Assembly: GCA_025360715.1 (NCBI GenBank)
Contig: JANYBS010000192.1
Span: 1 to 49,050 of the forward strand
Length of the DNA stretch: 49,050 bases
Source of the DNA: Candidatus Eiseniibacteriota bacterium
GTDB taxonomy: Bacteria; Eisenbacteria; RBG-16-71-46
Reading direction: 5' to 3'
The number at the start of each line of letters is the position of its first letter. Positions within the stretch are counted from its first letter, which is position 1. This document shows positions 4,816-6,312 of the stretch, piece by piece. Below the pieces are notes generated by a model. That model ran no database searches and had not been told where the DNA came from. It saw only the letters and a list, made by a program, of their open reading frames with translations. The position numbers were made by a program, and so were the translations under genes.

Positions 4816-5559
4816 CTACCGGTACAGCGTCTTGATCTTGCCCCACGTCGACTGACGGGTGGGCGTCGTGCAATCCGGAGCGTCGAACTTGCCGTTCGGA
4901 TGTGCCGAGTAGCCCGCCGGCTGGCTCTGGATGTCCCACAGACCATCGAGCAGACCGGGGACCTGCGCGCCGTTGCAGAACGACAGGCGGTAGGAGCCGC
5001 CCGTGACGCGGTAGGCACCCTTGAACGAGCCGTTGATCACACCGAAGCTGCTCTTGGTGATGACCGTGACGAGCGAGTCGACGTTGCCGCCGAGCAGGAC
5101 CGTGCCGTTCGCGTACTGCGGAAGCGCGACTGCCGGTGCCGGTACCGTGGCGGAAGTGTAGCCGCGCACCACGACAGGCGTGTGCTGGTACAGGTTGAAC
5201 CCGCCGTTGCGATAGACGGTCGTCCACTTCGTGCCGGACGAACCGAATGGCGTCGTCACCGTGCCCTGCGAGACCAGTCCGCCCAGGACCAACGTCACTT
5301 CAGAGGTCGGGTCGGCCAGGTTGATGCCCGCGAGCGGCCCACAGAGCAGGCTCGGTGACGCGAGGATCGTCAGGACATTGGCTGCCGGCGAGATGTTGCC
5401 GACCGGGTTGGCCGGGGTCTCGCTGGCGAAGCCGTTCGCATCCCACTTGAGAAGGATGTTGGTGCCGGTGCCGGTCACGCACTGCGCGTGGGCATTGCTG
5501 GTGAGCGAAGCGGCGGCGAGTAGCGTGAACAGGGCCGCCGTACCGAGAATCCTCTTCAT
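4816..5559 (-). CDS. secreted protein with WG-x-IK-x-LYR C-terminal module
   Basis: A 247-residue exported protein. The signal peptide MKRILGTAALFTLLAAASLTSNAHA ends in AHA before the mature Gln. Four cysteines in the mature part could make two disulfides. The middle is Gly/Thr/Val-rich and strand-forming, with no family I recognise. The last 34 residues, from PAGY to the terminal TWGKIKTLYR, align with the end of the neighbouring gene at 5605-6312, though the rest of the two proteins is different. The start ATG at 5559 has CTGGAGG upstream. The shared tail looks like a sorting or anchoring signal, but that is inference. Confidence 0.75.
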   Translation of the reverse strand: MKRILGTAALFTLLAAASLTSNAHAQCVTGTGTNILLKWDANGFASETPANPVGNISPAANVLTILASPSLLCGPLAGINLADPTSEVTLVLGGLVSQGTVTTPFGSSGTKWTTVYRNGGFNLYQHTPVVVRGYTSATVPAPAVALPQYANGTVLLGGNVDSLVTVITKSSFGVINGSFKGAYRVTGGSYRLSFCNGAQVPGLLDGLWDIQSQPAGYSAHPNGKFDAPDCTTPTRQSTWGKIKTLYR

Positions 5560-5604
5560 GAGCAACCTCCAGAGGCGCCGAGACGCCCGATGTCAGGTCG
5601 AGGC

Positions 5605-6312
5605 CTAACGGTAAAGGGCCTTGAGTGAGCCCCAGGACTTGTGCGCGGCAGGAGTGACACCCGGGATCTGCATCTCGCCCGAGAGCTGGTTGACATAGCC
5701 GGCCGGGACGGTGGCGTTCGGACGGCCCGCCTGACCCGAGAGCACCCAGCCTGCACGACGGCCGGGCGAGACGACGAACAGGTCCGCGCCCTCATCGAGC
5801 GTCGCCGTGCCATCGATACCGCCCTGGTTCGCGTCGTAATCGTACGTGAGCGCAAGGCCGTTCACCGCGGCGCCGATCAGCAGGTTGCCGTCGATGAACG
5901 TGGAGGGCGACGTGGCGTTCGCCGGGTTCACGCCGTAGTCCGCGTTGTGGCTGTTGTCTTCGTAGACGCGGATACGCGCGCCGGGAGCGAACTGCACCTC
6001 GAGCACGTTGTTGGTGAACGAGGACGTGACGACATTCGCGCCGGTCAGGAAATACGTGTGCTCAGCGCTGTTGTTCACGAAGCCCGCGAACAGTGTGCTG
6101 AACGAGGTCACGAAGCCCACCGAGTTGTACGTGTCGCCGACATTCAGGAACGGCGAGACGTTCGTGGAGTTTGCCGACCCACCAGCGCACGACGAGCAAC
6201 CGTTGCTGGAGTAGTCGAAGCCCGTGAAGCCGAGGAGGAAATCACGCTGCGCGAACGCAGGCGTGGCGGCCATGACGGACAAAGCAAAGAGGAGTAGCAA
6301 GGCCTTCTTCAT
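5605..6312 (-). CDS. secreted protein with WG-x-LK-x-LYR C-terminal module
   Basis: A 235-residue exported protein with signal peptide MKKALLLLFALSVMAATPAFA (AFA cleavage site). The mature part is rich in Asn, Ser, Thr and Phe, carries a CSSC pair near its N-terminus, and has beta-rich segments such as NNVLEVQFAPGARIRVYEDNS. It ends in a 33-residue module (PAGY...SWGSLKALYR) matching the downstream gene. The ATG at 6312 follows GGGAGGTG at good spacing. It is 45 bases upstream of the 4816-5559 gene and probably co-transcribed. Two perfect inverted repeats lie 60-115 bases upstream and may be operators. Function unknown. Confidence 0.75.
   Translation of the reverse strand: MKKALLLLFALSVMAATPAFAQRDFLLGFTGFDYSSNGCSSCAGGSANSTNVSPFLNVGDTYNSVGFVTSFSTLFAGFVNNSAEHTYFLTGANVVTSSFTNNVLEVQFAPGARIRVYEDNSHNADYGVNPANATSPSTFIDGNLLIGAAVNGLALTYDYDANQGGIDGTATLDEGADLFVVSPGRRAGWVLSGQAGRPNATVPAGYVNQLSGEMQIPGVTPAAHKSWGSLKALYR

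Follow-up and report, generated by a model that had tools for sequence, protein, structure and literature searches.

Two neighbouring genes on the minus strand of the 49,050-nucleotide stretch of DNA analysed here (the window) encode exported proteins with a common C-terminal end, and the locus raises the question of whether this end acts as a sorting or anchoring signal, as an earlier note made on the sequence had proposed, or belongs to one protein family. Open reading frames were found where that note had placed them, each with a purine-rich, GGAGG-like ribosome site and, as also claimed, a Sec-type signal peptide. Gene A (4816..5559, minus strand) encodes an exported protein of 247 aa, as judged from its reading frame, ribosome site and family alignments, and consists of a signal peptide, MKRILGTAALFTLLAAASLTSNAHA (5485..5559, minus strand; crude score 2.5), a beta-rich body and a C-terminal segment, hereafter the WG tail, TPTRQSTWGKIKTLYR (4819..4866, minus strand). 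Gene B (5605..6312, minus strand) lies upstream of A across a gap of 45 bases and encodes an exported paralogue of 235 aa, identified by its reading frame, ribosome site, alignments and an AlphaFold2 model (pLDDT 87.9). It has the same layout, with a signal peptide, MKKALLLLFALSVMAATPAFA (6250..6312, minus strand; crude score 3.2), a beta body and a WG tail, TPAAHKSWGSLKALYR (5608..5655, minus strand). Both cleavage sites were placed by eye, and in both genes the stop codon directly follows the tail.

A direct BLASTP comparison of A with B gave a significant match only in the last 34 residues, of which 14 are identical (E 8e-6 for this single comparison), in agreement with the shared end of 33–34 residues described previously; the portable part proved to be only the last 16 of these. 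When A and B were aligned via intermediates, they turned out to be distant paralogues over their entire length, with about 20% identity, contrary to the view that their bodies are unrelated. PAGY and the following mid-tail Gly, which had been counted as parts of the tail, are features of this A/B body family. Because A and B are full-length paralogues, the tail cannot be demonstrated from the pair alone. Neither protein matched a Pfam or NCBIfam family. The body family itself was matched in 27 of 64 genomes, in a few cases solely via the tail; its members stand mostly in tandem pairs, in several phyla (the window; L013, L113, L144–L163); one member weakly resembles the flocculation protein PepA (E 6e-5).

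The occurrence of the tail was examined with a DNA-level pattern, W-G-x-x-K-x-x-Y-R-stop, using the reversed pattern as a control. The genome of the window contains 31 stop-anchored matches to WGxxKxxYR, against none for the reversed control, and each of five genomes of the genus has 19–31. Within the phylum the tail was found in 43 of 47 genomes, with almost no control matches, and a stricter pattern, applied to 339 genomes with a control of 0 or 1 per genome throughout, detected it in 19 of the 292 genomes outside the phylum, the richest of which hold 52, 29, 19, 17, 13, 12 and 11 copies. Since presence was called from a strict DNA pattern, all of these counts are lower bounds, and degenerate tails do exist, for example in G025, a genome of the same class. 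There, at locus L158, members of the A/B family end in KSWGAIKKSLNEEGQN and RWGEIKKELRPGR; this genome has T9SS (type IX secretion system) type-A domains and no exact WG tails. The WG tail thus occurs far beyond chance and far beyond the two window genes. According to the earlier note, a general signal would become unlikely if A and B were ordinary paralogues over their whole length, or if no other protein of the genome carried the tail; the paralogy is real, and the 31 matches show the second supposition to be false.

To define the signal, 158 tail genes, 140 of them complete, were extracted from loci of 21 genomes, and their bodies were clustered after removal of the last 20 residues and the signal peptide. 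At least 76 body clusters were obtained. One representative per cluster gave the consensus [TVS]-[PA]-[VTA]-E-x-x-[ST]-W-G-x-[IVL]-K-[AS]-[LM]-[YF]-R-COOH, in which W, G, K, Y and R owe part of their conservation to the search pattern, which contained them. The upstream [TVS]-[PA]-[VTA]-E, the [ST], the preference for [IVL] and the [AS]-[LM] lay mostly outside that pattern, with the qualification that later searches did demand an S/T-like codon and, at the I/L/V position, a codon with T as its second base. The signal is 16 residues long, conservation being at background upstream of position -17, and the mean column identity outside the tail was 7% among 73 representatives. Judged from these sequences, the final 16 residues form a portable segment that ends exported proteins of many unrelated families.

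The bearers of the tail are largely exported. Signal peptides, scored with a simple script, were found in 130 of the 140 complete tail genes by this crude test, and in a comparison with the surrounding genes the score was passed by 60 of 64 tail genes versus 149 of 399 neighbours. In the larger loci the motif was exactly terminal in 62 cases, within 10 residues of the end in 4 and internal in 1; as these loci had been chosen for terminal matches, the distribution tells us only that internal copies are scarce. The bodies included ice-binding, NHL, FG-GAP, CHRD, CBM96/DNRLRE, cupredoxin, pectate lyase, lamin-tail and beta-helix domains, the most frequent Pfam family accounting for at most 3 of 73 representatives. 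Also among them were choice-of-anchor J, V and X domains, names given by NCBI to bodies that precede various anchors. At five loci (L064, L072, L079, L082 and L095), 1–10 extra residues stand between the tail and the stop codon, as in WGALKGIYRER and WGRIKAMYRSPR; exact C-terminal placement may accordingly be tolerant. Tandem arrays of WG-tail genes from a single cysteine-rich beta family were observed on C27 and C206 of the window's genome and on C94 of G001. Thirteen members of this family were sampled, from G000 and G002, and had no fold match in the PDB; the G001 arrays are known as motif matches only.

The structure of the tail was considered next. The AlphaFold2 model of B, built from 39 aligned sequences, consists of a beta body (residues 24–216), a linker and a short predicted helix, WGSLKALY, at residues 227–234 (5611..5634, minus strand), which lies outside the body and has a local pLDDT of about 64–72, lower than that of the body. 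In a second, unrelated WG family, AlphaFold2 likewise placed the last 17 residues outside a beta body, with low confidence and predicted disorder. Foldseek gave no significant match in the PDB for the body models of B or of this second family. Only the last nine positions enter the periodicity analysis: their conservation repeats at about 100 degrees, the value for an alpha helix, with hardly any signal at 170–180 degrees; the hydrophobic moment exceeded that of shuffled sequences for helix and strand alike and was therefore not used as evidence. Taken together, the model and the periodicity suggest, with modest confidence, that the WG tail is a short amphipathic helix.

We then asked which C-terminal ends stand in place of the WG tail on homologous bodies. 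At locus L159 of G022, a genome of the same class that encodes a clear exosortase, the window family has three copies in tandem, of which two carry the WG tail, while the third (L159:539-1243) ends in VPEPSSLMLLAVPLLGWAGLRVQRGCRSRRG, a PEP-CTERM-like sequence that scored 16.7 bits against the Pfam PEP-CTERM model, under the cut-off of 20.7, and E 6e-5 against the NCBIfam PepA PEP-CTERM model, also under its cut-off. Beta-helix bodies of WG-tailed and T9SS-domain proteins align over most of their length (L072 vs L111, E 3e-44). At L064, adjacent genes end one in a WG tail with two extra residues and the other in a T9SS domain, and at L104 a WG gene is located between two genes that share its N-terminal domain but have a T9SS type-A end. 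As homologous bodies end in a WG tail, a T9SS Ig-like domain or a PEP-CTERM-like end, the tail occupies the position of a sorting signal. The proposal of a C-terminal sorting or anchoring signal is strongly supported by these swaps with known C-termini, together with the diversity of bodies and the spread over several phyla.

C-terminal sorting signals have been recognized by a profile in which many proteins relate to one system, the signal behaves as a suffix, and families choose between anchors (PMC3237569). The WG tail shows the general features of such signals, namely an accompanying signal peptide, the extreme C-terminal position and suffix behaviour; as to co-distribution with a translocon, it is nested in SprA genomes, phylogeny being uncorrected, and no one-to-one partner was found. 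It shares this comparative-genomic profile with LPXTG, GlyGly-CTERM and MYXO-CTERM (PMC3237569). LPXTG and GlyGly-CTERM, however, consist of a motif, a transmembrane helix and a basic cluster, whereas a hydrophobic segment is missing from the WG tail; the LPXTG motif, transmembrane helix and basic cluster are absent from the WG consensus. PEP-CTERM is likewise a portable C-terminal signal on Sec-exported proteins, but it is made up of a PEP motif, a transmembrane helix and a basic cluster, and the WG consensus has neither a PEP motif nor a hydrophobic helix and also occurs in genomes without exosortase. Exosortase was considered as a general partner and rejected on the grounds that it is absent from G014, G021, G071, G145, G181 and G318, which carry 4–18 tails. 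The closest resemblance in context is to T9SS type A (TIGR04183, and PF18962, Por_Secre_tail), which is also C-terminal on many unrelated Sec-exported proteins, occurs in the same genomes on homologous bodies and ends in hydrophobic residues followed by a terminal R/K, with an SprA translocon and a PorV-type shuttle encoded. The type-A signal is, in contrast, an Ig-like beta domain of about 70–80 residues, while the WG tail has 16 and is predicted to be helical, and neither TIGR04183 nor PF18962 matched A, B or any of 73 representatives. T9SS type B (TIGR04131, CHU_C) is a second signal class, served by other shuttles (PMC12618676); it is a domain of about 100 residues often found beside porP/sprF, whereas the WG tail is short and no recurrent neighbour, including a linked porP/sprF shuttle gene, was found at tail loci of 10 genomes. 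Some type B signals are also orphans (PMC12618676). Both the consensus and the HMM searches bear out the statement that the tail differs from PEP-CTERM and LPXTG signals and from the Ig-like domain of T9SS. No Pfam or NCBIfam model covered the tail in the 73 representatives, and the papers searched on the motif, on choice-of-anchor signals and on T9SS outside Bacteroidota yielded no description of it.

The distribution of the secretion machinery was compared with that of the tail. SprA_N was found in 116 of the 339 genomes. Outside the phylum, 18 of the 19 genomes with the tail have it, versus 59 of the 273 without, an association (Fisher p 1e-10) that is confounded by shared ancestry. In-phylum genomes without an SprA match were mostly incomplete, and those tested still had T9SS type-A domains. 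Such domains were present in all 54 genomes tested, usually in large numbers and often at least 87, and PorV-family proteins in all 40 genomes tested (6–39 each), so that the latter, present everywhere tested, do not discriminate. The window's genome has at least 87 type-A domains, and 24 in-phylum genomes tested (G000–G046) encode 6–15 PorV-family outer-membrane proteins each; these numbers mark the phylum as a heavy user of T9SS. The WG tail is nested in SprA/T9SS genomes, and many T9SS genomes lack it; in family f5 of the same class, T9SS is present with only 0–3 tails. T9SS domains in the tail genomes end in T-R-K-M-V-L-L-R/K; like the WG tail, they close with two hydrophobic residues and a basic one, and a further basic residue stands at -5 or -6. 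In Porphyromonas (P. gingivalis) T9SS domains, the extreme C-terminal residues are essential, short extensions are tolerated and a lysine is conserved in the last strand (PMC11285876). In Flavobacterium, different T9SS signals use different shuttles and the same translocon (PMC12618676). From the co-distribution, the similar ends and these two reports, the route with the best support is a third type of T9SS signal, helical in form.

From the co-occurrence and the swapping we infer actual use of T9SS, and we hold with moderate confidence that the WG tail is a portable, short helical sorting signal read by this system. Sec would carry the protein over the inner membrane; the linker and a short, basic, amphipathic helix, which would display W, I/L/V, K and Y on a single face and end in the carboxylate of the terminal Arg, would remain detached from the folded body. 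The tail would be read in the periplasm by the SprA translocon system, probably via one of the many PorV-family shuttle paralogues, and the body would then reach the cell surface or the medium, with the tail removed or kept. This would add to the Ig-like types A and B a third class of T9SS signal, helical and minimal, that is found mainly on small proteins. An alternative that we consider unlikely, while taking it seriously, is that the tail sorts proteins for a machine or processing enzyme of its own, so far undescribed, whose presence alongside T9SS in these phyla would be coincidental. The missing Ig-like domain, the failure to match any T9SS model, the many T9SS genomes without the tail and the body families that, within one genome, use this tail alone all speak for such a machine; yet nearly all tail-positive genomes are SprA-positive, bodies are shared with T9SS-domain proteins even in adjacent genes, and no recurrent neighbour gene points to another machine. 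It seems rather doubtful that an entirely undescribed machine, distinct from T9SS, serves tens of small exported proteins per cell in several uncultured phyla.

Surface retention, in which a basic amphipathic helix would bind LPS, membrane or S-layer after exit by another route, would suit the helix predicted for B and the net charge of +2 or +3 in the last 10 residues of 70 of 76 representatives; the near-invariant W, G, K, Y and R and their terminal position nevertheless indicate specific recognition and not binding by charge and amphipathicity in general, and the swapping with translocation signals is left unexplained, which makes this reading improbable. Ordinary paralogy, by which the tail would be the conserved end of one protein family, is true of A and B themselves but very hard to sustain for at least 76 body clusters of diverse Pfam families that have only the tail in common. 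Short helices at the C-terminus and aromatic end motifs serve in outer-membrane barrel insertion and in the loading of cytoplasmic compartments; for the WG tail, however, the frequency of signal peptides argues against cytoplasmic cargo, and the soluble beta domains of the bodies, none of them a barrel, and the terminal Arg in place of Phe or Trp argue against barrel insertion, so that either role is scarcely credible. The WG tail looks like a hitherto undescribed label that directs proteins alongside T9SS and probably through it.

C-terminal sorting signals define the content of the bacterial surface. The curated models searched do not include the WG tail, so that several uncultured phyla probably contain, in each genome, tens of secreted or surface proteins with no annotation beyond "hypothetical". 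Should the tail belong to T9SS, the SprA pathway would take a helix of 16 residues in addition to folded Ig-like domains; this would bear directly on recognition by the translocon and its shuttles and would offer a very small tag for secretion. Otherwise, the tail points to a machine not yet discovered. Under either reading, the sets of WG-tail genes are now defined. Elsewhere in the window, a probable queuosine precursor cluster was observed at 1123-2863 on the minus strand, comprising a 6-pyruvoyl-tetrahydropterin synthase family gene (QueD-like), QueC and a radical-SAM gene (QueE-like).
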